A stretch of 16,041 nucleotides of DNA from contig JAGRBY010000102.1 of assembly GCA_020433835.1 (NCBI GenBank), forward strand, positions 1 to 16,041. The letters run 5' to 3'. The stretch's first letter is position 1. Every line of letters starts with the position of its first letter. The DNA comes from Anaerolineae bacterium (GTDB lineage: Bacteria > Chloroflexota > Anaerolineae > 4572-78 > J111). This document shows positions 1 through 16,041 of the stretch, one piece after another. The translations under genes were made by a program, and so were the position numbers. Under the pieces are notes generated by a model, which had not been told where the DNA came from, did not search any database, and worked only from the letters and a program-made list of their open reading frames with translations.

Positions 1-368
1 CCGACATCCAGCACCAGCAGCACCGGCGCATCAACCAGCTTGGCAATTTGAGCACTGCTGCCTTCTTCGGTTTCATAGCTGAAGCCATCGAACAGGCCCA
101 TCACACCTTCGATGAGGGCCAGATCGGCTTGTTGGGTGGCATTATGAAAGAGAGTCATCGCCCGCTGGGGCGGCACCATCCAGGTATCGATATTGCGACA
201 GGGGCGACCGGCGGCCAAACTATGATAGGTGGGGTCGATGTAATCCGGCCCAGCTTTGAAGGGCTGTATATGCAGGCCTCGCCGCCGTAAAGCGGCAATG
301 AGGCCCATCGTAATGGTGGTTTTGCCGACGCCTGAACTGGTGCCGGCGATGAGAATTTTTTTTATCAC
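1..368 (-). CDS. cbiA: Cobyrinate / hydrogenobyrinate a,c-diamide synthase, N-terminal part (cut by left window edge)
   Basis: Only the first 122 residues are present; the gene runs off the left edge. They show the glutamine-dependent corrin amidase fold of the CbiA/CobB family, which amidates the a and c side chains of cobyrinic or hydrogenobyrinic acid using ATP and glutamine in the cytoplasm. Visible motifs are the P-loop [10 protein letters not shown] (residues 9-18), the substrate-region motif [12 protein letters not shown] (38-49) and EGVMGLFDG (87-95). The C-terminal class I glutaminase domain, expected in a protein of about 450 residues, lies outside the window. The start is GTG at 368, whose GTGA overlaps the TGA of the upstream 110-residue gene, so translation is probably coupled; no clear ribosome binding site of its own is seen. 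Linkage to cobD supports the cobalamin assignment. Whether the substrate is that of the aerobic (CobB) or anaerobic (CbiA) pathway cannot be decided here. Confidence 0.93.
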
Positions 369-697
369 GCGTTTGATGCCAACTTGTAACAATCGTTTTG
401 GGGAGAGAATTCGCCGTAGAAAAGAAAGATGATAACTTCTTGTTCCGGGCCATAACTGTGGACGATCTGTTCCATCTCTTTATCGTCCCATAGCTGTCCC
501 TTGGTTGATGACAGATAATAAAAGCGCACCGTGTTTTCGGCAAAGTAGCGCAGATCGACCACCACCACACCGCGCCCTTTCGTAGCAAAGCCCTCGCGAC
601 CCACGCGAAACATTTCTTTGGTAATCTGTGGATCGTTCAGGTAATCTTCAATGTAGTCTTCCAAGGCAGGTGCTCTTTCGATCAACTGCTGGACCAT
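365..697 (-). CDS. Unrecognised 110-residue protein between cobD and cbiA
   Basis: I do not recognise the family. The ATG at 697 is preferred because a perfect AGGAGG lies 5 bases before it; the frame stays open to a TTG at 817, but that extension has no ribosome binding site and a low-complexity Lys/Arg-rich start. The product looks soluble and cytoplasmic: an acidic helical N-terminus (residues 1-30), a Gly-rich turn leading into the strand [12 protein letters not shown] (41-52), a second strand VRFYYLS (57-63), an acidic helix (70-82) and a hydrophobic strand [11 protein letters not shown] (87-97). There is one cysteine (C103), no signal peptide, no transmembrane helix and no recognisable catalytic motif. 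Its stop overlaps the cbiA start by four bases, so the two proteins are probably made in a fixed ratio. This, and cobD upstream, suggests a role near cobalamin synthesis, but that is context only. Confidence 0.8.
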
Positions 698-831
698 GTA
701 TTCCTCCTGTACCGTAAAGAGATAAAAATTGCTCCTTTTTCCCTTTACTCCCAACTTCCTCTGTTCTTTATTCCTTTTCCTTGGGTCAAATTTACTCCAA
801 AGCAGTGAATTTACCAAATTTTTGTACTTTT
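698..831 (-). other. Intergenic gap between cobD and the 110-residue gene
   Basis: The 134 bases are purine-rich on the minus strand. Apart from the ribosome binding site at 703-708 I see no hairpin with a U-tract and no convincing promoter; the best pair, TTGGTA and TAAATT with a 17-base spacer, matches the consensus at only four of six positions in each box. The downstream genes are most simply read as part of the cobD transcript. Confidence 0.5.
703..708 (-). promoter_or_regulatory. Shine-Dalgarno AGGAGG that fixes the start of the 110-residue gene
   Basis: Read on the minus strand, AGGAGG is followed by five bases (AATAC) and ATG at 697. It is the strongest ribosome binding site in the window and is the reason for rejecting the longer TTG-started frame. 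Because cbiA overlaps the end of this gene, this site may drive translation of both. Confidence 0.85.
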
Positions 832-1923
832 TTATAGGCTTTTACTCAGTCGGCTCAGAGCTTCAATCAAGCGGCGATTTTGTTCGGGCAGTTGAGCCGC
901 CACCCGAATATGCTGGGGCAGGCCAAAGGAAGAACAGTCGCGAACAAGCAATCGGCTGTTAAGTAAAGCTCGCCGCGTTGGGGCTGCCTGGCCGGTTTCG
1001 ATCAAGGTGTAAGAGGTGTTTGTGGGTAAAACACGCAGCCCGATATCGCCCAATTCTGCCCACAAAGCTGCGGCGTAAGAGAGAAGTTGCCGGATGTTGC
1101 GGCGCTGTTCGGCCTGAACATCCGGCTGTAGGGCGGCTACTCCGGCGACCTGAGCCAAACTGTTGACGCTCCAGGCCGGCTGCGTGACGCGCAGTTGTTC
1201 AATCCGCTCTGGCGTGGCGATGGCAAAACCCAGTCGCAATCCGGCCAGCCCATGCTCCTTGGTCAGTGAGCGCATCACAATAATGTTCTCATCGTGGTCT
1301 CGGGCTATCGCAGGCCGGCTTAAAGACTCCTCAAATGCGCTGAAATACTGATATGACTCATCAACGATCCACAAGGTTTCTGGCTGCGCTGAGGATCGCA
1401 GTTCGGCGATCTCGGCTGGAGTGAGATATTGTCCGGTGGGATTGTTAGGGTTGCACAGCCAGACTGTCGCCGGCTGTGTCTCTCGGATTACCGTTGCGAC
1501 ATGGGCTATATCGTGTCGATAATTGGAACCGGCAGCGAAGTAGGGCTGCACGTGTCCGCCCATCACGCGGATAGCCCGCTCATACTCGCCAAACGTTGGC
1601 GATAAGATGAGGTGGCGGCTGCCTGGCTTGATAAAGGCCAAGGCCACCATCTGGATTAATTCATTTGCTCCGTTGGTTGGTAAAATAAAATGGGGGTCGA
1701 TATCTTCGGCCATGGCGATGGCCTGTCGTAGTTCTAAACAGTGCCGGTCGGGATAGTGACGTAGTTTTGGTACCGTCACCGCCGCGCGGATAGCTTCTAG
1801 TACCGCCGGATGCGGCCCGAATGGGTTGCTGTTCGCGCTAAAGTCGATAATGTCATGCGGCGTTAGCCCCAATTTGTTTAATTCACCGTAGTCGATGTCG
1901 CCGTGAGGGACGGAGGTGGGCAT
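832..1923 (-). CDS. cobD: L-threonine-O-3-phosphate decarboxylase (CobD), PLP-dependent
   Basis: This 363-residue fold-type I aminotransferase relative fits CobD, which decarboxylates L-threonine-O-3-phosphate to (R)-1-aminopropan-2-yl phosphate, the linker of the cobalamin nucleotide loop. Visible features are SANSNPFGP near the N-terminus (29-37), the PLP contacts NPNNPTG (158-164) and DESY (188-191), the Schiff-base lysine K222 in SLTKEHGLAGLRLGF, and RDCSSFGL (328-335) followed by the carboxylate-binding arginine in HIRVA (R340). The RDCSSFGL signature and cbiA two genes downstream favour CobD over the close paralogue HisC, histidinol-phosphate aminotransferase, which remains the main alternative. 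The ATG at 1923 has AAAGGA eight bases upstream. A TATAAT box lies about 40 bases before the start. The length is normal and no key residue appears to be missing. Confidence 0.87.
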   Translation of the reverse strand: MPTSVPHGDIDYGELNKLGLTPHDIIDFSANSNPFGPHPAVLEAIRAAVTVPKLRHYPDRHCLELRQAIAMAEDIDPHFILPTNGANELIQMVALAFIKPGSRHLILSPTFGEYERAIRVMGGHVQPYFAAGSNYRHDIAHVATVIRETQPATVWLCNPNNPTGQYLTPAEIAELRSSAQPETLWIVDESYQYFSAFEESLSRPAIARDHDENIIVMRSLTKEHGLAGLRLGFAIATPERIEQLRVTQPAWSVNSLAQVAGVAALQPDVQAEQRRNIRQLLSYAAALWAELGDIGLRVLPTNTSYTLIETGQAAPTRRALLNSRLLVRDCSSFGLPQHIRVAAQLPEQNRRLIEALSRLSKSL

Positions 1924-1952
1924 AGATGGGTTCCTTTCGTAAATCGATTTTT

Positions 1953-1979
1953 TTCGAGCGAATTATACACGATCTCGAA
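1953..1979. promoter_or_regulatory. Inverted repeat TTCGAG-N15-CTCGAA around the cobD -10 box
   Basis: Half-sites at 1953-1958 and 1974-1979 are perfect 6-bp inverted repeats. Their centres are 21 bp apart, two helical turns, and the -10 box sits between them. This geometry suits a dimeric repressor that would block RNA polymerase, but a 6-bp repeat can arise by chance and no matching regulator is in the window. Confidence 0.35.
1962..1967 (-). promoter_or_regulatory. Probable -10 box (TATAAT) for the cobD transcript
   Basis: On the minus strand a perfect TATAAT lies in the gap between maf and cobD and would start transcription near 1955, leaving a leader of about 32 bases. At spacers of 16 to 18 bases the -35 position reads GCCTAT, CGCCTA or TCGCCT, none of which resembles TTGACA. 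The promoter may be weak or activator-dependent. No cobalamin riboswitch fits in this leader. Confidence 0.5.
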
Positions 1980-2064
1980 CGGAATAGGCGATTGACTTGA
2001 CTATGGCAAGAAATCAGAGTCATTCTTTAGCTATGTCTATAATCATTGGGAAAATATTGGAAAC

Positions 2065-2748
2065 TTAACTTTGACAGCAGGGGATACCGATATGCGGACT
2101 GCAAAATGTTGGCGTAGGTGGGAGAGGGACTCCAAACCGGCGAAGCTCGTCGGCTAATTCAGCGAGTGGGAGGCCCATGACACTGGCAAAACAGCCATCA
2201 AATCGGGCAACCGGGGCAAAACCCTCATCTTGAATACCATAGGCTCCGGCCTTATCCAGAGGAGAGCCGGTCGCTACGTAAGTCTCAATTTCGGCGTCCG
2301 TATAAGGGCGCATCCATACCTGACTGTGATGCTGAAGCGTTACGATTTTTTTGTGAGCGGGGTGAATTACGGTTAAGCCACTGTACACATCGTGGGCTTG
2401 CTGCCGCAACGATGAAAGCATCTCTGCGGCCTCATCGGGTGTTTGGGGTTTGCCCAAAATGCGATTATCCAATGCCACAACGGTATCAGCCGCGATGATA
2501 ATAAGCTGATGTGTATGGGCGTGTTCAATAAGAGGGGGGAAGGAAGATAAGTTCTCGGCCACAACCTGCGCCTTCCGTCGACTCAGGCGTTGGACGAGTT
2601 GTTCCGGCAGCTCGTGAGGAAAGGGGGTTTCATCAACCTCAACGGCCTGATCAGGCGAGACGGCCGTGAACGGAACTCCTAAAATAGTCATAAACTCCCG
2701 GCGGCGCGGCGACGTCGAAGCCAGTACCAGATGAAATTCGTCGGGCAT
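2065..2748 (-). CDS. maf: Maf-family nucleoside triphosphate pyrophosphatase (YhdE-like)
   Basis: Maf proteins hydrolyse nucleotides, including modified or non-canonical ones, to monophosphate and pyrophosphate in the cytoplasm. The 227-residue product has the N-terminal signature ASTSPRRREF (10-19), the metal-binding AADTVV (86-91, D88) and ILGKPQ (97-102), and KAGAYGIQD (166-174), which resembles the YhdE branch active on dTTP and UTP. The C-terminus adds about 20 residues ending in a Cys/His cluster (C216, H219, C224, C225). The ATG at 2748 is preceded by AAAAGG ten bases upstream, and that site overlaps the stop codon of the receiver-kinase gene 14 bases away. Maf is therefore probably the last gene of the signalling transcript. 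A direct signalling role is not implied; it may simply be carried along. An out-of-frame ATG at 2755 is ignored. Confidence 0.9.
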   Translation of the reverse strand: MPDEFHLVLASTSPRRREFMTILGVPFTAVSPDQAVEVDETPFPHELPEQLVQRLSRRKAQVVAENLSSFPPLIEHAHTHQLIIIAADTVVALDNRILGKPQTPDEAAEMLSSLRQQAHDVYSGLTVIHPAHKKIVTLQHHSQVWMRPYTDAEIETYVATGSPLDKAGAYGIQDEGFAPVARFDGCFASVMGLPLAELADELRRFGVPLPPTPTFCSPHIGIPCCQS

Positions 2749-2762
2749 GGGGCATTAGCCTT

Positions 2763-4055
2763 TTAGCTGTAACTTTGCTCTGGATGCAGCGGCAGAAGTA
2801 CATAAAAAGTGCTGCCCGGATTTTGTTCAGTATTGTAGCCGGCACTTTCAGCCCATATTCTGCCGCCGTGCGCTTCAATAATACCCTTGGCGATGGGCAA
2901 CCCCAGCCCAATTCCGCCGCCGCCAAAAGCCGTTTTACTGCTGCTATGGTATGTTGTATCTTCAACCATATAAAAGCGATCAAAGATCTCTTTTTGCTCT
3001 GATGGGGCAAGGCCGATGCCGGTATCTTTGATGGTGATGATAATTTGCCCCCCGGTTTGGTGAGGATTTTCTGCTTTTGTTACTTGACCCTCAATGAATA
3101 TCCGACCGTGGTCAGGCGTAAATTTAATGGCATTACTTAAAAGATTCCAAAAAACTTGCTTTAAGCGTTCGGCATCACCGACAATTTCGGGCAGTTCATC
3201 AACATTTTTGAGGGTAATGTGCAAGGTTCGGTTATTTTTGTTGGGGTTCAATTCATCAAGGGCACTGTTAATAAGTTTGCCGACGTGAACACGTTGGTGC
3301 TGAAGCTGCATACTACTGGCCTCAATGAGAAAGACATTGAGAACGTCATTGACGACCTCATTAAGACGGTGAACCGATTTGTAGATTTTTTGTACCAGGC
3401 TAACCACATGTTTTTCGGTGCTTTCTGCCTGATCGCTTTCTTTTATAGCTGATTGGAGCAAGCGAGCGTAGCCGTATACCAGCGTCATCGGCGTTCGCAG
3501 TTCATGGCTGGCCACGGTAATAAAGTCGGATTTTAACTTGTCAACCTTCTGCAGGCGCGTATTTGCGTCTTCCAGTTCGAGAATTTTTGTTTCAAGACGT
3601 TCAACCAGCTTTTTGCTGTACTGATCGAGATAATGCTGCTGCTCATCTTTGCTGATGGTATCTTTTTGGCCTTCAAGATAGCTAACAATCTGGTTGGGAA
3701 AGTTGTCGACATCGATAGGTTTATTAATGTATCCATCGCAGCCGGCGGTTAAGGCTAGTTCACGGTCTCCCTTGGTGGCGTATGCTGTTAAAGCAACAAT
3801 GGGGGTTCTTTGCAAACCAGAAATCGTGCGCATACGGGTAGTAGTCTCGTGTCCGTCCAGACCTGGCATGTTGATATCCATCAAAATGAGGTCGGGTACC
3901 TCTTTGGTGGCAATTTTGATACCCTCCAGGCCGGTTTCAGCCTCAATTACTTCAAAATCATAGTTGGTGAGAACACGATTGACCAGGGAACGGTTGAGCG
4001 GATCATCATCGATATATAAAATTCTGGGCTTGGTTGCTATTAAGGTTTGCGGCAC
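2763..4055 (-). CDS. Receiver-histidine kinase protein (N-terminal REC, C-terminal HisKA-HATPase_c)
   Basis: This 430-residue soluble protein begins with a receiver domain (about 11-128): acidic pair D16/D17, phospho-acceptor D60 in LILMDINMPGLDG, T90 and K112 in NKPID. A charged coiled coil (about 136-172) leads into HisKA with H184 in ASHELRTPMTLVYGY, then HATPase_c (about 287-424) with N-box NLLSNAIKFTPD (304-315), DTGIGL (344-349) and the Gly-rich loop GGGGIGLGLPI (378-388). All phosphotransfer and ATP-binding residues appear intact. There is no input domain or membrane segment, so the receiver is the likely input: a partner kinase would control this kinase by phosphorylating D60. The start is GTG at 4055 with GGAGA about eight bases upstream. 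The gene lies 45 bases after the enzyme-receiver fusion and 14 bases before maf. No DNA-binding output is present, and its own target is unknown. Confidence 0.93.
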   Translation of the reverse strand: MPQTLIATKPRILYIDDDPLNRSLVNRVLTNYDFEVIEAETGLEGIKIATKEVPDLILMDINMPGLDGHETTTRMRTISGLQRTPIVALTAYATKGDRELALTAGCDGYINKPIDVDNFPNQIVSYLEGQKDTISKDEQQHYLDQYSKKLVERLETKILELEDANTRLQKVDKLKSDFITVASHELRTPMTLVYGYARLLQSAIKESDQAESTEKHVVSLVQKIYKSVHRLNEVVNDVLNVFLIEASSMQLQHQRVHVGKLINSALDELNPNKNNRTLHITLKNVDELPEIVGDAERLKQVFWNLLSNAIKFTPDHGRIFIEGQVTKAENPHQTGGQIIITIKDTGIGLAPSEQKEIFDRFYMVEDTTYHSSSKTAFGGGGIGLGLPIAKGIIEAHGGRIWAESAGYNTEQNPGSTFYVLLPLHPEQSYS

Positions 4056-4100
4056 GGTGTTATCTCCGGTAGTACTTAAGCGGGTGGGTCGATCAAAAAC

Positions 4101-5780
4101 TTACTTTAGAACATCACTAATACTCTCTACTAATTGGTCTTCCATAAATTCGCCTTTTTGAAGAAGAGACTCAATACGTCCCGAAAGACGTTGATAATCT
4201 TGGTTGGTTAAATCCTTGGCTGTGATAACAATTACTGGAATATCGCGTAATTGTTCATTCGCTTTCATGGTATCTAATACTGTAAAGCCATCTACTTCCG
4301 GCATCATTAAATCGAGCAAAACTAAATCCGGCTTTTTCGATTGAATGAGGGCCATACCGGTGGCACCGTCAGGCGCTTCGTAGATTTTGTATTTACGTTC
4401 ATATTGTAATATGCGACGCAGCAGCAAACGTGCATCCGGCTCATCTTCAATAATGGCGATGCTCTGAACCCGATCGTCTAAACGCTTCAATGCGTTTAAC
4501 AGCCCTTCCTGACGAACAGACATGGCTCCCAACTCCATATTTTCGACAACATCCCCTTCTATATTTTGCACCCGAGTGTGTCTTTTAACAATTTCATTCT
4601 CTAGAATCTGCTTTTCGATAGGGAAGGTGTGGCCCGAAGCGTTGACTACAACCGTTTCGGTAGAGCCAATAAGCTGTTCTTGCATGAGTTTGACTAGGCC
4701 GGCACAAGCAACAGCCGCAGCGGGTTCCATCGATAATCCTTCCAGTTGGGCCATAACCCGCATTAGCCGGAAGGACTCTTGATCGTTGACCTTAATAAAG
4801 GCCCCTCCCTGCTGCTGTATTATATTTCGCAAGAAAGGATAAGCCGGACCGGGATTACCAGTAGCCAAAACGTTAATAATGCTGGTTGGATTTTGAACAG
4901 GCTCGACAATTTCTAAGCCTTTATGAAAACTGTTGACCATTGGGGCACACCCCTCCGTTTGGATAACGGCAATTTTAGGGATTTTGTCGATGAGCTTCAT
5001 ATCGTACAGATCTTTAAAGCCGCGCCATACTCCAATCGGGCCCATCCCCCCGCTAACGGCCTGAATATACCAATCCGGAGCAGCCCATCGCGTGCCACGT
5101 ATTCGCCCTAATTGCTCCGCAATTTCAAAGGCCAGAGTTTTCATAGCTTCCCTGGCAATAAGCGATTTAATACCCTTATCTAAAAAAAGATTGCGGTAAT
5201 CGGCAAATTTGGCGGCGATTTGTTTAGTCACGTCATAGCTGCTTGACACTTTGATGACCTCTGTGCCGTAAAGTGTCACTTCACGCATTTTTTCGTGGGG
5301 AACATTGCTGTCTAAAAAGGCCCACAATTTTATTCCAGAGCGCGCGCAATAGGCTGAGTATGATATCGCTACATTGCCGGTTGAAGCCACAACCGCCTCG
5401 CGGATGTCAGCTTCTTTCATTGCCGAGATAGCCAATGAGGCTTGGCGATCCTTAAAGGAAGCTGTGGGGCCTTGTCGCTCGTCTTTTACAAAAATAAGGC
5501 GATTGCCCAGCATCGCTCCCATGTTTTCTACTTGTAACAGCGGCGTCCAACCTTCACCCAGCGAAACAATGTTTGCTTTTTCGCGCAGTGGTAAAAGTTC
5601 CCAATAGCGCCAAATTGTGTGGTCACGTTCAGAAAGTTCCTTGTCCCAGATTTGAGATGTCTCTTCCAAGTTGTAGAGAGGGTCGAGCCACTCGCCTCCA
5701 CATTGAGGGCAAGCACCGATGAGGTTCGTGTATTCGGCTGTGTGATTGCAATTGTTGCATCGGTAGAAAAACTTTTTCAC
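4101..5780 (-). CDS. Threonine-synthase-like PLP enzyme fused to a C-terminal response-regulator receiver domain
   Basis: The 559-residue product joins two unrelated modules. Residues 1-400 form a threonine-synthase-family (fold-type II) PLP enzyme: a four-cysteine zinc-ribbon-like head (C8, C11, C24, C27), the Schiff-base lysine K110 in GPTASFKDRQ, the substrate loop STGNVA (133-138), the cofactor-phosphate loop AVSGGMGP (241-248) and NASGHTFPIEKQ (380-391). Threonine synthase converts O-phosphohomoserine to threonine and phosphate; that substrate is inferred, and a diverged relative is possible. After a linker of about 38 residues comes a complete receiver (439-559): E445/D446, phospho-acceptor D490 in LVLLDLMMPEVDG, T520 and K542. 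The frame is continuous, with no stop or start signal at the junction. The start is GTG at 5780, with only a weak GAGAG site, 17 bases after the giant kinase gene. Its position inside a kinase operon suggests that enzyme activity, assembly or location is controlled by phosphorylation. Confidence 0.9.
   Translation of the reverse strand: MKKFFYRCNNCNHTAEYTNLIGACPQCGGEWLDPLYNLEETSQIWDKELSERDHTIWRYWELLPLREKANIVSLGEGWTPLLQVENMGAMLGNRLIFVKDERQGPTASFKDRQASLAISAMKEADIREAVVASTGNVAISYSAYCARSGIKLWAFLDSNVPHEKMREVTLYGTEVIKVSSSYDVTKQIAAKFADYRNLFLDKGIKSLIAREAMKTLAFEIAEQLGRIRGTRWAAPDWYIQAVSGGMGPIGVWRGFKDLYDMKLIDKIPKIAVIQTEGCAPMVNSFHKGLEIVEPVQNPTSIINVLATGNPGPAYPFLRNIIQQQGGAFIKVNDQESFRLMRVMAQLEGLSMEPAAAVACAGLVKLMQEQLIGSTETVVVNASGHTFPIEKQILENEIVKRHTRVQNIEGDVVENMELGAMSVRQEGLLNALKRLDDRVQSIAIIEDEPDARLLLRRILQYERKYKIYEAPDGATGMALIQSKKPDLVLLDLMMPEVDGFTVLDTMKANEQLRDIPVIVITAKDLTNQDYQRLSGRIESLLQKGEFMEDQLVESISDVLK
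4104..4466 (-). other. Receiver domain of the PLP-enzyme fusion
   Basis: This segment encodes residues 439-559 of the fusion protein. Aligned by hand without gaps to the last receiver of the neighbouring giant kinase (5849-6214), about 50 of 119 positions are identical, including the acidic pocket, D490, the region after T520 and the shared LL-x-K motif. Both belong to the same receiver subtype and may share a phosphodonor. The enzyme part ends before this segment, so the domain adds to rather than replaces enzyme sequence. Confidence 0.88.
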
Positions 5781-5797
5781 AAGTTGCTCTCTAATGT

Positions 5798-8700
5798 CTA
5801 TAGAAATAGTTTTGATTTAGATCGTTTTTTTTCTTCTTGACGAAGCCGATCAAGGGCCTGACTGATATCTTCTAAAAGTTCGTTTTCGGTAAAAATAGCT
5901 TTATGCAGTAATGCTTCAACCTGCCCTGTAAGCTGAGTTTGTTGTTCGACGGTTAGTTGTTCCCCACTGACAATAATAATAGGGATAGAACGGGTTTTTT
6001 CATCACCCTTTAAATTCTCGATCATGGTAAAGCCATCCATTTCCGGCATGTTAAGGTCAAGAATAATTAAATCAGGCTTTGTGCTTTCAACAATTTTTAG
6101 GCCTTCTTTACCATTGCTGGCTTCATTGATAATGTAATTGTCTTGTGCTTCTAAAATTCGACGCGTTAAAAGAATGTCATCTGCTTTGTCATCAACAATC
6201 AGTACTTTTATAGCTTCGTTCTGTTGTTTGTCGATGTGGCTAAGTGCTTCAATAAGCTCGTCTTCAACAATCGGTTTGATAAGATAATTGGTTGCACCCA
6301 GTGAAAAACCCCGGTTTTTGTCGCTGGCTATACTACAAACAACAATGGGAATATCTTTTGTAACCTGATCTTCTTTTAATTCTTTTAGCAGACTCCAACC
6401 ATCTTTGTCGGGGATGATGACATCGAGCAAAATAGCAAATGGTGAGAGCTTTTTGATTTGGGAGACAACATCCTCCGTATACTCCAAACCTGTAACTTGA
6501 TAATGTTGTTTTTCTAGAAAGCGTTTATATAAGGCGATAACTCCGGGGTCATCATCAATGACAAGAACTTCCTTTTCTGTTGGCGGGGTGTTATCTGCTA
6601 AAGAGAGAGAGAAGTCATCAATTTCGATGACATCATTGTTTGGTGCTTTTATGGGAATAGAGAAGCTAAAAATTGAGCCTTTGTTGGGCGTACTATCAAC
6701 CCAAATTTTACCTTGATGCATTTCAACAAAGTGACGACTTATCGGTAGACCTAGTCCGGTTCCGCCCGCTTTTCGCGTTGTGCTGGCATCGACCTGAGTA
6801 AATTCTTCAAAAATGTTTGACAATTTGCTGTCCGGTATGCCGATACCAGTATCAATAACGCTAAATACAACGTAATCTTGCTCAACTTTTACTAAAGTCG
6901 TCACCGAGCCTTCCTCTGTGAACTTACAGGCGTTTGATACGAGGTTAAGAATGACCTGTCGAATGCGCGTTGGATCAGCCCAGATAGTAGGTAAATTTTG
7001 AGGAATTTCTTGTTTTAAGCTAACAGATTTATCTTTAACCAATGCCATAGCGGTAGACATAACTGTTTTGATGATGGGTTCGATCTCGGTTTCCTCAAAG
7101 TTGAGTTCCATCTTACCGGCTTCAATTTTAGAAAGGTCGAGAATATTGTTGATTAGCCCTAACAGGTGTTGGCCACTGTTGTGGATAGATGTTAAGTCCG
7201 TTTTTTGTAATTCAGTTAACGGACCATCAATGCCTTTGAGAATAACCCGTGAAAAACCAATAATGGAGTTAAGCGGTGTCCGTAATTCATGGCTCATATT
7301 AGCCAGAAATTGTGTTTTTAATTTGTCGATCTCTTTAAGGCGCTCAGCCGTTTCTTGTTGCTCCTTAAACGCCTTAGCGTTTTCGATAGCAATAGCCAGC
7401 TGGGCGGCCAAAACATCAAGCGTTGAGATTTCATCTTCGGTAAATGCCTGGGGCGATGTGCTCTGAACATCTAGGACTCCAATGAGCCTATCACCTACCT
7501 GGAGAGGAATCGCCAGTTCAGCTTCCGTTTCCGGCAGAAGTTCATTGCGATGATAGGTGTAAATTGGCTGGGTATCTATATCGGTGCTGCGGGTAACAAT
7601 CGGTTTGCGTTGGGCCGTTACCTGCCCAATAACACTTTTGCTGCCGATAGCCACTTTGTAATGCATTTCTAATAAGCGTCTACCTGTTTCGCCGGTACTC
7701 TTATGGAGAACAGCATACTGCTCGGCCTCATCCACAAGAAAGATCTGAACGTGATAAAAGTTGAAGCGCTCTTTTATAAGCTGGACAGCTTCATCTAGCA
7801 TTTCAGCTTGATCAAGAATACCGGTTGCTGCCCGCCCTACATCGGCACTGGTTTGCAGCAGAATTGCTCTCTTTTTTGTCTCTTCGATAAGGCGTCGGTT
7901 TTGCAGTGTAATCGATAACTGGTCGGCCATGGCTACGGCTAAGTTTATCTCGCTTTCGGTAAATATGTGCTTTTTGCCTAATGAGTCGGCTCCAATTGCG
8001 CCGATGACCTCATCATCGATAATAATGGGCACCAAAAGCAGTGAGACAATGCCGCGTGGGATATTAATTTCACGTACGGATGCCACCAATGGATCCGTTG
8101 ACACATCTTCAATCGGCACAGGTTGCTTTGTTTCGATAAGGCGTTGGTAAGAAGGGTTATCTTCAATGGGTATGCGCAATCTTGGCTTCATTACGGGTTT
8201 GCCGTTTTCAAAGAGAGCATGAAGTTTTCCGTAACGACGATCCTCTTCAAATAGAAGAATACCACCTTGCTTTAACCCCAGCGTTGACAACATCTTGCCC
8301 AGAACAGTGTTAAACATCTCGCGCTCATCTTCGGTTGCCACTAAAATACGACCTACCTCATAGAGCGCTTCTGCCTCTTCGCGAGAAATTTGAGTTTGTT
8401 CAAACAGACGCGCCGACTCAATAGCCTGAGCGGCTTGGTTGGTTATCGCTTCGATAATTTGTAGTGTATCGTCTTCCCAAATGGCATCAAGTGTGCTTTG
8501 CGGTAATTCGAAATCGATTGTACCAATAACGGCTTGACCATTGAGGGTCAGTGGCACAATAAGAGACGAGGTTCTTTCAGGCAGTGGACGTGTCCAACGT
8601 GTGGAGTCTTGCTCACTTTTACCATTGGTTAGCCGGTGATCGCCTAATTTTTGCGTTCCCTCATTCAAAATAGACCTGGTGGCCGGAACGACAACGGCTT

Positions 8701-11700
8701 TCTTTTCAACAATGGCTTTGCTAGTACCCGGTAATACCATTCCCTCTTCATCAAGGGTGACGCCATTTTCGGTTAACCGATATTGGGTAGCAGCGCGCTG
8801 CTCTCTGATGTATGTGGCCCACTGATTTTCCACATAATGGCGGTGCATTTTGTTGACTTCATCAAGTGTACTGTTCAGCTCTTGTACTGCCCGGGCCGCT
8901 TGAATAGCATTTGCCAATTGGTTGGCCATAGATTGCAGAATGGTGATATCACTTTCATCAAAGGCGCTGCGTTTGATGCTTTGTACATCAAGCGCTCCAA
9001 TAATTCGTCCTTGAGCGGTTAGGGGTAATGCCATTTCTGAATGGGCGTTAGGGAGAAGTGGGTTGTTAAAATGAATAGCATGGGTGCCAGTATCCATGGC
9101 GATATAAGGTTGACCAGTTTCTGTGGCTGTGCCAACAATACTTTGCCCCCCAACTTCCAACTTATGTTTCATCGCCAACATTTTTTGTCCAATTTCGCCG
9201 GTTGATGCTCTTACAAGGGCATATTTTCGGTAGTCGTCCACCAAAAATATCGAGACGTGGTAAAAATTAAATCGCTCTTTAATGAGATCGACGGCTTCAG
9301 ACAGCAACTTATCCAGATCAAGATAGACAGTGGCTGCTTGTGAAACTTCAGCGGCCGTTTGGAGTTGGCGTGCCCGGTGTTCTGTTTCATCCAGCAAGCG
9401 TCTGTTCTCTAATGCTACGGATGTTTCACGGGCAATATTTTCATAGAGCCGGATAATTTCCGATGAAAAAGCGATTTCGCTTTCATTGCCGGCCAAAATG
9501 AAACCTTCTACATTCATATTCAACCAAATAGGAACAGCAGCCATCGATTTGATTTGCATAACCGCAAATAGCTGCTTGAGCAATAAAGAAAATCGCTCGT
9601 CTCTTTCGATAGAGGATGACACAATAGTGTTGCCTGTTCTCAGCAGTGGTACCAGCCCTAACTCCTCTGTAGAAAGATGAGAACTAAGCGGGATACTGGG
9701 CCACTCTTTGCGGGGGTTGTCCCATAGAGCTACCAGTTCCAGGTCAATGCTGTCACGGGTTTGATCATACATAAAGATCGATACGCCACGGTCTGGTTCG
9801 GTAGCGGCTATAGCAGAAATCGCCAAGTCGAAAATATCTTCAATTGTTTCGACTTTAAGGAGCTGCTGTCCCAGGTTTGAAAGGATTTCGGAGTTATAGA
9901 GGTTTTGCTGGGTTTCGGCCACTAACTGCAGGTTTTGGATAACAACAGCGGCCTGACCAGCCAAATTGATAATTTGATTGATAATATTGGACTTAAATTG
10001 ATAGCGCTCTGTTTTACTTTCAAACAGCAAAACCCCCAACCAATTGCGACCAACAGCCAGGGGGACCGCCAGAATAGTTCGAATTCCCGGTTGGTATGCT
10101 TCTATCTGGGCTTGTGTGTCCGCAGGTAATGTTTCATAATGAATTTCGACGACATCGTCGTACCGTAAATTTTGAATGAATGTAAATTCGTTGGCCGGAA
10201 GTGTGATACTTGTGCTTAAAATTTCTTGCGTATCATGACTCCAACCGGCAATAAGATTCAGGCCTGCTAATGTTTCACCACTATTGATACAGTTTACTAA
10301 CGCGATGTGCATATAATCGATGGTTGTTGTTTCGGCAAAACTGCCAACCATAATATCCAGTAAATCTTCAACCGACTGCGCCGTATTGAAGCGCCGGCTG
10401 GCTTTATAAAGAAGTTCCGTTTCGCTTAAGACCTCAGTAGTCTTTTCCAAAAGCCAAACATTTTCCAAACTTGTGGCGGCTTGGATAGCAACTGCATCAA
10501 ATGTTGCTAAATTTTCTTCGGTAAAGCCGTCGGAGTGGGCGTGAAAAAAGGTGAGAACGCCGTGTAAAATGCTGCGTTGAGAGAAAAATGGCACACAAAC
10601 AGCCATATTTACAGTAGGCATATTGGCTGATTTATCTAGTAACCATTTTTGTTGGTTGATGCGATTAAAGATTACACGCTCACCGCGATCAAGAGCCAAT
10701 GCCTCTGGCCCCTCAAGAAATGCATGGCGGGCCAATTCATCGGCATTCATCTGTTGCCGCTGAGGAATTGTTGAGCCGACCGATAAAAATGCTCCACCGT
10801 CGGTAATATAAATTTCGGTATAGGTTGCTCCGATACGCTCGCTAAAAGAAAGGATCACGTCTTGTACATCTTCAACAGAGTTGGTACTGCTTAGTTTCTG
10901 CGCGAGTTGGTATAGCAGAGCAGCTCGATCGCGCTCTTTTTTAGTAGTTTCTAGCAGCCGGTGATTTTCAATGGCAATGATGGCTTGGTCGGCCAATGTT
11001 TGATAGATCCGTGTCTCTTGCTCGGTGTACGTATGTGGTTTTCGCGTATAAATCGAAAGCACACCTTTATATTCTGTCCCCAAAAACATTGGAGCTGAGA
11101 ACAACGTGATGGCCTGGAGTTCATTAAGCACAAACTGTCGAAATTCCTCATCCATGCGCTCGTCTTGTTCCGAATGCCGTAAATCGTGAGAAATCAAAGG
11201 GGAAAAAGGCGGTTGTGCAAATGCTTCAACCAGACCAAATTTTCGAGCCGAGAATTCAGAGCCAATGGGTACATTTTTGGATGATTCTCTGTCCCATGTA
11301 GAAGCAATGGTGACCGACTCGATCTGCTCTTCTTTCGATTTATCGAGCAGAGAAATGCTGACGCGATCTACATCGTAATGTTTTACGTTATCAAGAACAA
11401 TATTAAAGATGTCATCAAGGCTAACACTTTTTACCAATGCACTACTAATTTGAAAAAGCTTTTGAGTACCGGCTAATGCTTCTTGCGTTTGTTGGAATAA
11501 CTGTGCATTTTCAATGGCAACGGCGACTTGGGCGATTATGGCCTTTGTTAATTGTATTTCGTTTTTAGTATAGGGATAGGGATATTCAAAATGCTCTACT
11601 TCCAAAATGGCGATGAGCTTGCCGCGAACGATCAGTGGAAACCAACCTAAAGTAGAAGCTACTTTGTCTTGTTGGAGATAGGTGGATAGTTTAGGGTCAC

Positions 11701-12898
11701 TGTCAGCGGTGCCAAGGTGAAAGATGATCTCCTTCGGCTTGGTGATCATCTGTTGAAGCGGCAGAAAGTCATCAACCGTTAAAAAACGAGATGGACGGGC
11801 GCGAAGTGAAAAACTGTCTGTAAGCAATACTTTTTGTGCCCGCTCTTCGAAGTGCGTTTCGGCTCCATTTAGTTCCAAAATTGAGCAGCGTTGGCAGTTA
11901 AGGTAATTAAAAATTTGGATAATGAGAATATTATAGATCTCTACCAGATCGATTGTTTCTGTTAGCTGGCGTGTAGCCTCAAACAAAATAGCTAGCTCTT
12001 GGGTTCGTTCTTGTGTTTGCTCTAGCAACTTAGCGTTTTCAATAGCCAAGGCTACCTGAGATCCTACTTCTTCTAGCAAACTGATGTCATCCGGTGTCCA
12101 GTCAGCCCGATCATCATCGCTTTCTACTCCCAAAAAGCCAATATCTTCCCCATGAAGGTGAATCGGCAAAAACAAAGAGCGATCATCGTGGTTTTTTGTG
12201 GCCATTTCTGATAACTTCTCAGTTGGTTGTGAGTCGATGCGCGAGATGTCATGTTGATCGTATTGAAAACCGAGCTGATGTTTTTGTTTCGATGGTTGGT
12301 TCTGACTTTCAGAGGCTGTATTTTGGAGGTTGTAAAGGGTACGCGCTTCTTGAATACTGTCTTCCAACTGGTAAATTGTGCGATTGTGCGCCATAAAGAA
12401 GGCAATAGACTTGGTTACCGTCTGTAGAAATTTGATATCTTCTTCATCAAAGTTGTTGGCGGTTTCGGCCTGAAAGCACAAGGCCCCGAGAAATGTTTCA
12501 CGGTATTTAAGCGGTAAAATTAATTCAGAATTATGTGAATTTTGGTCTTGACCAGCCTCATAAACACTTTGGGTCACGTCAGGAATGTAGATAACTTTGT
12601 CTTGTTTAAGGGCCTCACTAATACTATTTTCTTCTTCAAATGAAAAAATAGTAAGGTTTTGTGTACTACTGGATTTACTACTCAACCCGCTTTCTAAATA
12701 GAGCCATATATCCTCTCCTGTTATGGAGAGTTGATAAATTTGAGCAGTAGCATAGCCCAGCGTGTCAATCAAGATGTGCAATACATCCTGTAATATATTT
12801 TCAACCGTATCATCTGAAGTTACCAAGTCATTCACGGCCTGAAATAGAGTCAATTGGCGAGAAGATTTTTCCATATAGCTTTGCTCAGTATCTATCAT
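5798..12898 (-). CDS. Giant soluble multi-GAF hybrid histidine kinase (about 11 GAF modules, HisKA, HATPase_c, REC, REC)
   Basis: This 2366-residue protein has no signal peptide or membrane helix, so it should sense cytoplasmic or diffusible signals. GAF modules lie near residues 30-177, 180-290 (half), 318-465, 490-647, 672-815, 840-990, 1015-1166, 1193-1335, 1380-1497 (half), 1520-1668 and 1693-1840, joined by long helices with repeated AIEN-x-x-LL-type ends. The kinase core has H1870 in MSHELRTPLNSIIGF, N-box NLVSNACKFTEEG (1985-1997), DTGIGIPD (2016-2023) and GGTGLGLPISRHF (2045-2057). Receiver 1 (about 2110-2224) has D2159 and K2208; receiver 2 (about 2231-2350) has D2281 and K2333. All phosphotransfer residues appear present; no Hpt domain is seen. 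The ATG at 12898 follows AAAGGG by eight bases. The tail EEKKRSKSKLFL is basic. The gene sits 12 bases after the PAS/GAF gene and 17 bases before the enzyme-receiver fusion. GAF ligands cannot be inferred. Confidence 0.95.
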   Translation of the reverse strand: MIDTEQSYMEKSSRQLTLFQAVNDLVTSDDTVENILQDVLHILIDTLGYATAQIYQLSITGEDIWLYLESGLSSKSSSTQNLTIFSFEEENSISEALKQDKVIYIPDVTQSVYEAGQDQNSHNSELILPLKYRETFLGALCFQAETANNFDEEDIKFLQTVTKSIAFFMAHNRTIYQLEDSIQEARTLYNLQNTASESQNQPSKQKHQLGFQYDQHDISRIDSQPTEKLSEMATKNHDDRSLFLPIHLHGEDIGFLGVESDDDRADWTPDDISLLEEVGSQVALAIENAKLLEQTQERTQELAILFEATRQLTETIDLVEIYNILIIQIFNYLNCQRCSILELNGAETHFEERAQKVLLTDSFSLRARPSRFLTVDDFLPLQQMITKPKEIIFHLGTADSDPKLSTYLQQDKVASTLGWFPLIVRGKLIAILEVEHFEYPYPYTKNEIQLTKAIIAQVAVAIENAQLFQQTQEALAGTQKLFQISSALVKSVSLDDIFNIVLDNVKHYDVDRVSISLLDKSKEEQIESVTIASTWDRESSKNVPIGSEFSARKFGLVEAFAQPPFSPLISHDLRHSEQDERMDEEFRQFVLNELQAITLFSAPMFLGTEYKGVLSIYTRKPHTYTEQETRIYQTLADQAIIAIENHRLLETTKKERDRAALLYQLAQKLSSTNSVEDVQDVILSFSERIGATYTEIYITDGGAFLSVGSTIPQRQQMNADELARHAFLEGPEALALDRGERVIFNRINQQKWLLDKSANMPTVNMAVCVPFFSQRSILHGVLTFFHAHSDGFTEENLATFDAVAIQAATSLENVWLLEKTTEVLSETELLYKASRRFNTAQSVEDLLDIMVGSFAETTTIDYMHIALVNCINSGETLAGLNLIAGWSHDTQEILSTSITLPANEFTFIQNLRYDDVVEIHYETLPADTQAQIEAYQPGIRTILAVPLAVGRNWLGVLLFESKTERYQFKSNIINQIINLAGQAAVVIQNLQLVAETQQNLYNSEILSNLGQQLLKVETIEDIFDLAISAIAATEPDRGVSIFMYDQTRDSIDLELVALWDNPRKEWPSIPLSSHLSTEELGLVPLLRTGNTIVSSSIERDERFSLLLKQLFAVMQIKSMAAVPIWLNMNVEGFILAGNESEIAFSSEIIRLYENIARETSVALENRRLLDETEHRARQLQTAAEVSQAATVYLDLDKLLSEAVDLIKERFNFYHVSIFLVDDYRKYALVRASTGEIGQKMLAMKHKLEVGGQSIVGTATETGQPYIAMDTGTHAIHFNNPLLPNAHSEMALPLTAQGRIIGALDVQSIKRSAFDESDITILQSMANQLANAIQAARAVQELNSTLDEVNKMHRHYVENQWATYIREQRAATQYRLTENGVTLDEEGMVLPGTSKAIVEKKAVVVPATRSILNEGTQKLGDHRLTNGKSEQDSTRWTRPLPERTSSLIVPLTLNGQAVIGTIDFELPQSTLDAIWEDDTLQIIEAITNQAAQAIESARLFEQTQISREEAEALYEVGRILVATEDEREMFNTVLGKMLSTLGLKQGGILLFEEDRRYGKLHALFENGKPVMKPRLRIPIEDNPSYQRLIETKQPVPIEDVSTDPLVASVREINIPRGIVSLLLVPIIIDDEVIGAIGADSLGKKHIFTESEINLAVAMADQLSITLQNRRLIEETKKRAILLQTSADVGRAATGILDQAEMLDEAVQLIKERFNFYHVQIFLVDEAEQYAVLHKSTGETGRRLLEMHYKVAIGSKSVIGQVTAQRKPIVTRSTDIDTQPIYTYHRNELLPETEAELAIPLQVGDRLIGVLDVQSTSPQAFTEDEISTLDVLAAQLAIAIENAKAFKEQQETAERLKEIDKLKTQFLANMSHELRTPLNSIIGFSRVILKGIDGPLTELQKTDLTSIHNSGQHLLGLINNILDLSKIEAGKMELNFEETEIEPIIKTVMSTAMALVKDKSVSLKQEIPQNLPTIWADPTRIRQVILNLVSNACKFTEEGSVTTLVKVEQDYVVFSVIDTGIGIPDSKLSNIFEEFTQVDASTTRKAGGTGLGLPISRHFVEMHQGKIWVDSTPNKGSIFSFSIPIKAPNNDVIEIDDFSLSLADNTPPTEKEVLVIDDDPGVIALYKRFLEKQHYQVTGLEYTEDVVSQIKKLSPFAILLDVIIPDKDGWSLLKELKEDQVTKDIPIVVCSIASDKNRGFSLGATNYLIKPIVEDELIEALSHIDKQQNEAIKVLIVDDKADDILLTRRILEAQDNYIINEASNGKEGLKIVESTKPDLIILDLNMPEMDGFTMIENLKGDEKTRSIPIIIVSGEQLTVEQQTQLTGQVEALLHKAIFTENELLEDISQALDRLRQEEKKRSKSKLFL
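5849..6577 (-). other. Tandem receiver domains of the giant kinase
   Basis: Receiver 1 (6233-6577) starts KEVLVIDDDPG and has D2159 in AILLDVIIPDKDG. Receiver 2 (5849-6214) starts KVLIVDDKAD and has D2281 in LIILDLNMPEMDG. The two are clearly diverged from each other. Receiver 2 resembles the receiver of the PLP-enzyme fusion more closely than it resembles receiver 1. Confidence 0.92.
6650..7327 (-). other. HisKA-HATPase_c transmitter core of the giant kinase
   Basis: This encodes residues 1858-2083. The helix EIDKLKTQFLANMSHELRT carries the phospho-accepting H1870, followed by the second dimerisation helix ending LINNILDLSKIEAGKMEL and the Bergerat ATP-binding fold. It is the complete transmitter nearest the transmitter-less PAS/GAF gene just upstream, so it may serve both sensors. 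Confidence 0.93.
7379..12811 (-). repeat. Tandem GAF-domain array within the giant kinase
   Basis: About eleven diverged protein-level repeats of roughly 110-175 residues are chained by coiled-coil-like linkers. The modules are not near-identical in DNA, so this is old domain duplication rather than a recent tandem repeat. Two modules, at about 12029-12361 and 8399-8881, keep mainly the C-terminal GAF half. The pair at 8894-9322 and 7379-7861 are the most alike, sharing LIKERFNFYHV and LDVQS motifs. Boundaries were set by eye and may shift by 10-20 residues. Confidence 0.8.
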
Positions 12899-12910
12899 AA
12901 TTTTAGCCCT

Positions 12911-15900
12911 TTACTTCTCCAGAGCGGTATCAGATTCCAAAGAGCCGTTCGTTTCGGAGGTGGCGGTAAGTTGAATGTAAGTGCGTTTGCTTCCTAGGGC
13001 GTCACCTATTTCTTTTACCGTAGTCTGGAGAATAGTTTCAAGGTCTGTTGATGCTCTTACTTTGGTGGTGATGTTTTTTATTAAGGCTTCACGTCTGGCC
13101 CGTTGTTGGCTCATCTGATAGCGTCGGGCATTATCAAAAGCCATCGCAGTTTGGGTGACAAACACTTTCAGTAACCTTAGGTGGGATTCCTGAATAGAGG
13201 CATTGCTATTTTTAAAGCCGGCTTCTACCAACCCCACATTTTCCTGGCGGAGTATTATAGGCGTAAAAACTCTCACCCAGTTAGCATGTCCTTCTACATC
13301 ATAAAGATGTTGATCATAACGGTCGTCCCAGCCGGTAATAACCTCAGTTTTTCCGGTTCTGATAATATCGGCCATGATATCTTTATCGTCTAGAGAACGA
13401 TCCGATTGTTTGATATTATTTTCAGAAATCCCTACCCCGGATATAGCCTGGATGCGCTGGCGCTCTGAATCGACTACCGACAATAAAATATAATCAAAAC
13501 CAATTTCTCTAATACATGTTTCAAAGAAAAGACTCACTATCTCACCAATTTTTAGTGTGCCCGATAACGATTGCCCTAACCTTTGCATGGCCATCGTCTC
13601 GCGTAACCGCGTTTCTGCCTCTCGACGGGCCTGGCCGGCTCGCTCATACAGATTGGCATTGGCTATAGCATTGGCTAACTGGTCAGCCATTGTCTGGAGC
13701 ATGGTGATATCTTCTTGGGAAAAAGCTTCGCGCTCGGTACTTTGCACAGTTAAGGCACCGATAACTTCCTCGCGGCTAACGAGCGGCAGGGCCATTTCAG
13801 AGCGAGTCTCGGGCAGAATAGGGTTTTTGAAACGAACCGCTTCCTGCCCCACATCCAGGGCAATTCTCGCTTTTCTATGGTAAACACTCCAGCCAATCAT
13901 CGATTCTTCGCCGATTTTTAATTTGTGATTTTGTCCAAGTTGAATGCGTCCGGCCTCGCCGGTACCGGCCCGCAATACGGCCCACTCTTTTGCTTCATCG
14001 ACTAAAAATAACCCGACGTAGTAAAAATCAAACTGATCTCGAATTAAATTTACGGAGTTCTCAATGAGATCATCCACATCCAAAATTGAGCTGGCAGCTC
14101 GGGAAACTTCAGCCGCTGTTTGTAGTCGACCTGTTCGATATTGGGCCTCGGCTAACAGGCGACGGTTTTCCAACCAAATCGCCAGTTGGTCGACAACAAC
14201 TTGGCCAATTTCAATGTCGCTTTGTGAAAAATTCCGGTTTTCTTGATTACTGCCTGCTGCCATAATACCGATTGTTTGACCTCGAAGTGTTATAGGCATA
14301 TAGAGCATAGATTTGGCGGGAAGAATATTCCGTATTAAATGATTGTCTTTGGTCATAGCATGCGTAAAAACATTGCCAATAACCAAAGGTTTAGGCTCGG
14401 CAATCATATGCTGAAAGAGCGGTTCTTTAGCAGAAGTTGATATGTCTATATGAACTGGTTCGCCGTTGATATAAAGCGCACGAATTTTGTTTTTGTCGCC
14501 GGCTTTATTCAGTAGGGCCAGCTTGCCTGATTTAACCCGCAGAAGGCGCAGATACTCTCCCAGAACAGTTTCAAAAGTTGCATGCTCATTAGGTGCTGTT
14601 GCTAATGCATCCCCAATGCGGTAGAGTGACTCCGTTCTCTCTAAAGCTTGAACTAGGCCTTCTTCCGCTTTTTGTTGTTCAACTAAAGCGGCTTGGGTTT
14701 GATCGAGAAGCTGAGCGTTTTCTAATGCGCCGGCTATCTGCTGGGCAATCGTTTCGGCCAGTTTAACCTCGTTGGGTTCAAACGTTCGCCCTGGGGTATC
14801 AAATGCAATTCCCAACGTTCCAATTGTTTTGCCGTGGGTAATCAAAGGCGTTATTAAAATACATTCGATATTAAGCTTTGCCATCAACCCATGCACAGCG
14901 GCTGTTTTTGGATTGCTCTGGGCTTCGGTGACAACAATAGACTTTCCCGTTTCGATGACATAGCTTGATGAGTAGTTGTTTTCAAGAGGAATTCGATACC
15001 CTTCAGAGGCAGCTTCTTTGTTAACTCCATAATCTGAGACAACATTTAATGCGTCTCCTTCATCGGTAAGCATGGCAATACCGCTGCGGCACGCTCCAAA
15101 AAGTTGCAGCATCTCTTGAGCGACAGCCCAAAAACTCTTGTGGGGATCGGTGGCTAATGTAATGGCCGTGGCAACGCGGTTTATAGCGGCCAATTCAGCA
15201 TTTCGCTGTAAAATTTCTTGTTCTGCTTTTTTGCGGTGCGTAATATCCGTCACCGCCCCTTCAAAGTAGATGAGATGCCCGTTGGTGTCGAAAACCGAGC
15301 GCCCGTTTTCAGAAATCCAGATGATTTCGCCATCACGTCGGTGAATCTTAGACTCAAAATCGGAAATTTGTCCTAATTTTCGTATCTTTTTTATAAACTC
15401 ATCGCGTCGGTTAGGGACAACGTAAAGCTGATTCTTGATATCAATTATGTTTTCGATTAATTGCTGCGGTGAGTCGTATCCATAAATACGTGCTAAAGCT
15501 GGGTTAGCACTAATGTAATGCCCATCTAGCGAAGTTTGAAAAATACCTTCAACGGCATTTTCGTAAATGCTGCGATACTTTTCTTCCGCTTGCTGAAGTG
15601 CTTGTTCAGCTTTCTTGCGTTCGGTGATATCTTGCGTTATACCAAAGACATTCACGGCTTGGTTATCTTCCAATCGTTGAATGCGACCGATGGTGTGAAT
15701 ATAGCGAATTTCATTATCGTTCAGTAATATGCGATGCTGAATTTCATAACTGTCGGTATCTGAAGCCAAAATTCCTTCAATAAGATTTTCGACGTTTTCA
15801 CGATCATCCGGGTGAATGAGAGACAAGAATAAATCAAAATCAACTTTGGTATTTTCTGATAAACCAAAAATTTTATATGTGCGATTGCTCCACCTTGCTT

Positions 15901-16041
15901 CGCTATTAACTAAATCCCAACTCCAGGTGCCGAGTTTAGCAATTTGATATGCTTCAGCAAGCCGTTCTTCGCTTTCTTGCAGTTTAGCCCGTATTTTCAA
16001 AGGAACGGTGATGTCTTCTATAATCCCTAACAGAGTTTGAG
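12911..16041 (-). CDS. PAS/GAF sensor protein without a kinase module (5' end beyond right window edge)
   Basis: About 1042 residues are visible and the frame is open through the right edge. The first residues (QTLLGIIEDITVP) are the end of another PAS/PAC domain, so the gene starts outside the window; a TTG at 16000 is not a real start. Counting from that TTG, modules are PAS (16-126, with HPDDRE and DITERKKAE), PAS (139-258, DITHRKKAE), GAF (285-430), GAF (468-612), GAF (643-783, with FLVDEA and EMALPL), GAF (818-957) and a final stub (about 985-1010) that stops after the first GAF helix and strand. No HisKA, HATPase_c, GGDEF, EAL or DNA-binding domain follows before TAA at 12911. It may act through the kinase encoded 12 bases downstream, or a catalytic or receiver domain may lie in the unseen N-terminus. 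No membrane helix is visible. Confidence 0.92.
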   Translation of the reverse strand, partial: QTLLGIIEDITVPLKIRAKLQESEERLAEAYQIAKLGTWSWDLVNSEARWSNRTYKIFGLSENTKVDFDLFLSLIHPDDRENVENLIEGILASDTDSYEIQHRILLNDNEIRYIHTIGRIQRLEDNQAVNVFGITQDITERKKAEQALQQAEEKYRSIYENAVEGIFQTSLDGHYISANPALARIYGYDSPQQLIENIIDIKNQLYVVPNRRDEFIKKIRKLGQISDFESKIHRRDGEIIWISENGRSVFDTNGHLIYFEGAVTDITHRKKAEQEILQRNAELAAINRVATAITLATDPHKSFWAVAQEMLQLFGACRSGIAMLTDEGDALNVVSDYGVNKEAASEGYRIPLENNYSSSYVIETGKSIVVTEAQSNPKTAAVHGLMAKLNIECILITPLITHGKTIGTLGIAFDTPGRTFEPNEVKLAETIAQQIAGALENAQLLDQTQAALVEQQKAEEGLVQALERTESLYRIGDALATAPNEHATFETVLGEYLRLLRVKSGKLALLNKAGDKNKIRALYINGEPVHIDISTSAKEPLFQHMIAEPKPLVIGNVFTHAMTKDNHLIRNILPAKSMLYMPITLRGQTIGIMAAGSNQENRNFSQSDIEIGQVVVDQLAIWLENRRLLAEAQYRTGRLQTAAEVSRAASSILDVDDLIENSVNLIRDQFDFYYVGLFLVDEAKEWAVLRAGTGEAGRIQLGQNHKLKIGEESMIGWSVYHRKARIALDVGQEAVRFKNPILPETRSEMALPLVSREEVIGALTVQSTEREAFSQEDITMLQTMADQLANAIANANLYERAGQARREAETRLRETMAMQRLGQSLSGTLKIGEIVSLFFETCIREIGFDYILLSVVDSERQRIQAISGVGISENNIKQSDRSLDDKDIMADIIRTGKTEVITGWDDRYDQHLYDVEGHANWVRVFTPIILRQENVGLVEAGFKNSNASIQESHLRLLKVFVTQTAMAFDNARRYQMSQQRARREALIKNITTKVRASTDLETILQTTVKEIGDALGSKRTYIQLTATSETNGSLESDTALEK

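Follow-up and report, generated by a model that had tools for sequence, protein, structure and literature searches.

A PLP enzyme of the threonine-synthase group fused to a phospho-receiver domain and encoded beside a hybrid histidine kinase in Chloroflexota

A 16,041-nucleotide stretch of DNA from an Anaerolineae bacterium (contig JAGRBY010000102.1, positions 1 to 16,041; hereafter the window) was analysed. Its minus strand carried one open frame of 559 aa at 4101–5780, starting at GTG and ending in TAA, and frame 1 of the plus strand over the same region was broken by many stops. From N- to C-terminus the predicted protein comprised a zinc ribbon, a fold-type-II PLP enzyme (PALP), a linker and a receiver. 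The zinc-ribbon cysteines C8, C11, C24 and C27 (5700–5759) were invariant in 60/60 fusions aligned and present in 230–239 of the 240 homologues listed by the searches below, the remainder being gaps. The PALP domain (residues 72–383, 4632–5567) scored 208.8 bits against a Pfam cut-off of 35, and included the Schiff-base lysine K110 (5451–5453). A linker (residues 388–437, 4470–4619) with a conserved EGLLxALExLD stretch preceded the receiver (residues 441–554, 4119–4460), which scored 73.7 bits, above the curated Pfam cut-off of 30.2, and contained D446, D490 (4311–4313), T520 and K542. A first-pass annotation had read this region, for which it gave no strand, as a single frame encoding a PLP enzyme and a receiver. 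The frame and the Pfam matches bore this out, on the minus strand, and alignments placed C8, C11, C24, C27, K110, S133-T-G-N136, D490, T520 and K542 exactly where it had put them.

Two protein searches were made with the window protein and with a Herpetosiphon copy as queries, and the best 120 of 7411 and the best 120 of 6636 matches, respectively, were listed; no protein was common to both lists, giving 240 listed homologues. All 120 matches listed for the window protein, and all 120 for the Herpetosiphon copy, contained both domains, indicating that the fusion was no assembly join. K110, S133, T134, G135, N136, G383, H384, D446, D490 and K542 were identical in all 240, and position 520 was T or S in every one. 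The phospho-acceptor Asp, acidic partner, Thr/Ser and Lys of a response regulator were thus all present, together with a separate effector domain (PALP) in the same chain, throughout the listed homologues. Decay of the receiver to a non-phosphorylatable form was rejected on the same invariance of D446, D490 and K542. Names on the listed homologues were Herpetosiphon, Chloroflexi/Chloroflexota, Anaerolineae or Anaerolineales, most of the 240 rows being nameless, and a protein entry under the name Herpetosiphon giganteus also contained the full-length frame. Herpetosiphon is a genus with cultured strains, and it has a fusion member.

A sample of 400 Chloroflexota genomes (including G001, an Anaerolineae MAG) was searched. 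At least 57 full-length fusion copies (E ≤ 1e-146) were found in 42 of the 400 genomes, 15 of which had two; these counts are lower bounds because only three candidates were scored per genome. The next matches covered the PALP part only, at ~30–36% identity and with E no better than 6e-61. The copy in G001 (locus L001) was 95% identical to the window fusion and had no internal stop, and comparison of this one pair of genes gave dN/dS values of 0.032 for PALP, 0.041 for the linker and 0.003 for the receiver. Two of the fusions scanned (L086 and L105) carried two receivers. The occurrence of both domains and the key residues in 240/240 listed homologues, with at least 57 copies in the genome sample, indicated a fixed architecture: the PALP-receiver fusion is real and fixed within its Chloroflexota clade.

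The first-pass annotation had named two findings that would undo the fusion, namely close homologues always encoded as separate genes, and a missed stop or join at 4466–4590. The former was excluded by the fused listed homologues and the 42 genomes, and the latter by the stop-free 95% copy, the other genomes and the dN/dS values. That an assembly or read-through artefact had joined two genes, for which nothing was found in favour, was already refuted by the identical full-length layout in 42/400 genomes and in the H. giganteus record, and its probability is negligible. Outside Chloroflexota, a light search at E 1e-90, run with no positive control alongside, gave no match in 148 genomes from the phylum of Reichenbachiella, and in a light search of plasmids none of 707 matching records covered 80% of the query.

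The hybrid histidine kinase gene upstream (5798–12898, minus strand, 2366 aa) ended 17 bp before the fusion start, and its product contained nine GAF stretches, HisKA, HATPase_c and two receivers by Pfam. The HisKA and HATPase_c core (residues 1861–2083, 6650–7318, minus strand) had an intact H-box, HELRTPL. When three receivers encoded nearby were compared with that of the fusion, the second receiver of the hybrid kinase (5867–6205, minus strand) was 43% identical over 118 aa, the first 25% and that of the downstream gene 32%. Directly upstream of the kinase and near the window edge, a gene at 12911–16000 (minus strand) encoded a PAS/GAF protein in which Pfam gave no kinase core. This gene and the kinase gene lay in different frames, and the two-gene split was repeated in L001 (1218 and 2366 aa), indicating that it was no frameshift peculiar to the window.

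Neighbourhoods were compared over 58 loci from 43 genomes (L001, L002 and L056–L111). In 55 of these 58 loci the fusion was preceded, on its own strand, by a kinase core whose end was no more than 1600 bases away; the three fusions without an adjacent kinase were L060, L061 and L092. By gene calls this kinase was the immediate upstream gene in 52/57 loci. In L060, a polynucleotide phosphorylase was the second gene upstream of the fusion. The adjacent kinase cores were 42–92% identical to that of the window, whereas the remaining 48 kinase matches of these loci reached 22–36%. The 56 adjacent kinases fell, together with a single additional kinase from L105, into one clade (support 0.836), and the H-box and N-box were intact in 56/56. 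Pairwise distances of the kinases and of the PALP domains were correlated (r 0.906, 1540 pairs), part of which vertical descent alone would give. The members of this linked clade are the candidate cognate kinases of the fusion.

Downstream of the fusion, by 45 bp, the window carried a gene for a receiver-histidine kinase of 430 aa (2763–4055, minus strand; gene calls and Pfam). The following gene differed between loci. Of 57 loci, 29 had a gene for an EamA-type transporter, 18 one for a stand-alone receiver (122–170 aa) and two one for a receiver-kinase (as did the window); in the other eight the contig ended or a different gene followed. These classes were assigned by BLAST to a few references, with Pfam run on representatives only, and L091 was dropped because the gene caller had missed its fusion. 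Two EamA proteins were scanned, and their match to NCBIfam TIGR00950 was far under the cut-off. The EamA transporter was rejected as a universal partner, being found in 29/57 loci and not beside the window fusion. Past the EamA gene, many loci (L062, L066–L070, L074–L076, L078, L080 and others) had an opposite-strand set of ~245, 525 and 865 aa, which in L067 comprised an OmpR-type regulator, a receiver-GAF kinase and a GAF kinase. In L091, L095, L099, L102, L104 and L105 a PALP-only gene was next, or next but one, downstream; such genes were ~28–30% identical to the window PALP, and that of L095 was of the PRK08197 type (577.6 bits). A scan for promoters and terminators gave counts no higher than in shuffled sequences and was uninformative on operon limits.

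The stand-alone receiver next door in 18/57 loci implied that there may be phospho-targets besides the fused receiver. It would suit a scheme in which the fused receiver serves only to dimerise or localise the enzyme, or as a phosphate sink, leaving catalysis untuned. The invariance of D446, D490 and K542 and the receiver dN/dS of 0.003 (one pair) point the other way, since they fit, short of proof, a working switch, and we consider such a passive role very improbable.

Public records of the protein bore names including "threonine synthase" and "pyridoxal-phosphate dependent enzyme". By sequence, the closest solved structures were threonine synthases (profile E 1e-59), followed by cysteate synthase (6e-23). 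In common with threonine synthase ThrC (2zsj, 2d1f, 1uim; TIGR00260), the fusion had the PALP fold, the Schiff-base lysine within SFKDR, the STGN loop and a C-terminal (T/S)GH; it differed by the extra receiver. Cysteate synthase (9k3c; TIGR03844), a threonine-synthase paralogue, was recognisably homologous to the fusion and was rejected as its identity on score (96.8 bits vs a cut-off of 324.9). Among the 25 NCBIfam matches shown, the window protein fell below the cut-offs of all six threonine-synthase models: PRK08197 (NF006050; 243.4 bits vs 303), which was the best match, PRK05638 (182.5 vs 421), PRK06450 (133.8 vs 301), TIGR00260 (133.4 vs 167.1), PRK08329 (120.6 vs 358) and PRK06381 (114.3 vs 266). 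The fusion copy closest to the window reached 140.5 bits with TIGR00260. The cut-off of this model was passed by 15 of 57 fusions (168.0 to 188.6 bits), the window's type not among them, and the nearest miss to PRK08197 among the fusions scanned was that of L060 (302.2 bits). The zinc-ribbon PRK08197 type shared the N-terminal CxxC...CxxC with the fusion and differed in having no receiver; its L095 member had SFKARG and AGNAG where the fusion had SFKDRQ and STGN.

Genome context was also consulted. A separate strong ThrC (TIGR00260 ≥ 262 bits elsewhere in the genome) was present in 36 of 42 fusion genomes and missing from six (G194, G013, G389, G074, G066 and G130), in which assembly gaps are possible. 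A thrB gene over its cut-off was found in 27 of the 42; it stood beside the strong ThrC in 24 of these 27, and by coordinates in none of them within 20 kb of the fusion.

To compare active sites, 60 fusions, 12 canonical ThrC proteins (of 36, from fusion-bearing genomes) and 19 other PALP paralogues were aligned to the Thermus enzyme. The alignment agreed with the position, 61, that we take for the SFKDR lysine of that enzyme. Thermus K61, S84, T85, G86, N87, G318 and H319 were kept in 60/60 fusions, and T317 was T or S in all 60. At T88, N154, S155, R160 and N188, which we take to be the substrate-phosphate contacts, all five residues were kept in 12/12 canonical ThrC proteins and all five were replaced in 60/60 fusions: T88 by V or A, N154 by R, M, K, L, A or Q, S155 by G, R160 by A, S, G, C or P, and N188 by G. 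Near the replaced positions, Q113, G203, S243 and T307 were family-specific and fixed in the fusions, and D201, M213 and N380 were likewise invariant. Mean entropy at 31 positions aligned with those taken here as the Thermus active site was 0.31 bits vs 1.05 bits for the rest of the domain, and 0 of 10000 permutations gave a value as low. Low entropy together with replaced phosphate positions indicated a pocket that was maintained but altered.

The loss of the phosphate positions was in itself no proof of a new substrate, because the 19 other paralogues also lacked T88 and S155 (0/19 each) and mostly R160 (kept in 7/19), N154 being kept in 10/19; some of these paralogues carry a threonine-synthase label, and one scored 577.6 bits against the PRK08197 cut-off of 303. 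In a tree the fused PALP domains grouped together (60/60) on a long stem (0.80) with weak support (0.388), and their sister group included the PRK08197-type protein of L095. Since the pocket appears remodelled in a fixed, family-specific way, the substrate of the fusion enzyme is probably not O-phosphohomoserine but a different amino-acid compound. The automatic "threonine synthase" label on the fusions is, on these comparisons, doubtful, and such labels may hide another activity.

A genuine threonine synthase under two-component control, in which phosphorylation would throttle or boost threonine output, would agree with the closest structures and best NCBIfam models, with the 15 fusions over the TIGR00260 cut-off, and with the six genomes without a strong canonical ThrC, assembly gaps being possible there. 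The frequent EamA gene could be added, as EamA-type transporters are able to move amino acids. Against it stand the cut-off misses of the window protein, the phosphate positions replaced in every fusion aligned, and the separate ThrC, usually beside thrB and far from the fusion. An ordinary threonine-making role is probably to be discounted on these alignments and scores, the housekeeping candidate being weakened by all three lines, and two-component control of true threonine synthesis is rather unlikely. The earlier description of the fusion as an amino-acid biosynthetic threonine synthase was therefore not upheld, given the roles taken here for the replaced positions.

The PLP domain might instead be a sensor or scaffold that would bind an amino acid or PLP and report to a complex of receiver and kinase. 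Aminotransferase-like domains serve as sensors in the MocR/GabR regulators, the fusion sits among multi-receiver signalling proteins, and binding pockets too can be strongly conserved. Receivers, however, are usually output switches rather than readers of attached sensors, and the Schiff-base lysine and PLP-contact motifs were invariant in all the listed homologues; a sensing role seems unlikely.

The reading we prefer is a kinase-driven response regulator with a remodelled PLP enzyme as its output, to which we would give a probability of just under one half. It accounts best for the data because a large clade has conserved the fusion, the phospho-acceptor site and the kinase. The multi-GAF hybrid kinase, whose gene ends 17 bp before the fusion, would sense a signal and phosphorylate D490, directly or via its own receivers, and the phosphorylated receiver would alter how active the enzyme is or how it assembles. 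This enzyme is a member of the threonine-synthase group and would have kept PLP chemistry. In many relatives, the transporter encoded by the following gene may export the product. With a fused output and an adjoining kinase of its own, the cell may thus answer signals at the level of an enzyme, which would be switched in place of a gene. The first-pass proposal that a metabolic enzyme is the direct output of a two-component system accordingly survives in part: the fusion, the intact phospho-acceptor site and the conserved neighbouring kinase speak for it, and the biosynthetic threonine-synthase identity is not supported. A more elaborate version, a dedicated operon of kinase, PLP-enzyme response regulator and transporter in Chloroflexota, in which a phospho-switched PLP reaction would make or destroy an exported amino-acid-like compound as a chemical rather than transcriptional output, is speculative and quite unlikely.

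If the receiver does control the enzyme, the locus would be a compact, conserved example of amino-acid chemistry placed directly under a two-component system whose kinase is encoded next door, and would offer a testable system for aspartyl phosphorylation controlling a fold-type-II PLP enzyme. According to PMC5847659, receivers attached to metabolic enzymes are already known in bacteria, and archaeal cases are listed there as well. Enzymatic-output response regulators such as the BcsA-like glycosyltransferase and KaiC-type fusions (PMC5847659) resemble the present protein in having a receiver on an enzyme and a limited phyletic spread. They differ in that no PLP enzyme appears among the outputs named in section 14 of PMC5847659, and in that here a large clade has conserved both the enzyme and its partner kinase. 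Literature searches turned up no paper on a PALP-receiver fusion, as judged by title or the start of the abstract and with few subscription journals covered; it is possible that such fusions have been catalogued before.

Two further observations concern the surroundings of the fusion. At 832–1923 (minus strand) the window encoded a second PLP enzyme, an aminotransferase of class I/II, whose best NCBIfam match was threonine-phosphate decarboxylase CobD (260.6 bits vs a cut-off of 290.55), with HisC next; the contig of the closest relative ended after a Maf gene, short of this aminotransferase region. The genome of that relative, G001, was very rich in receivers, with at least 150 receiver matches (150 of 352 candidates scored).
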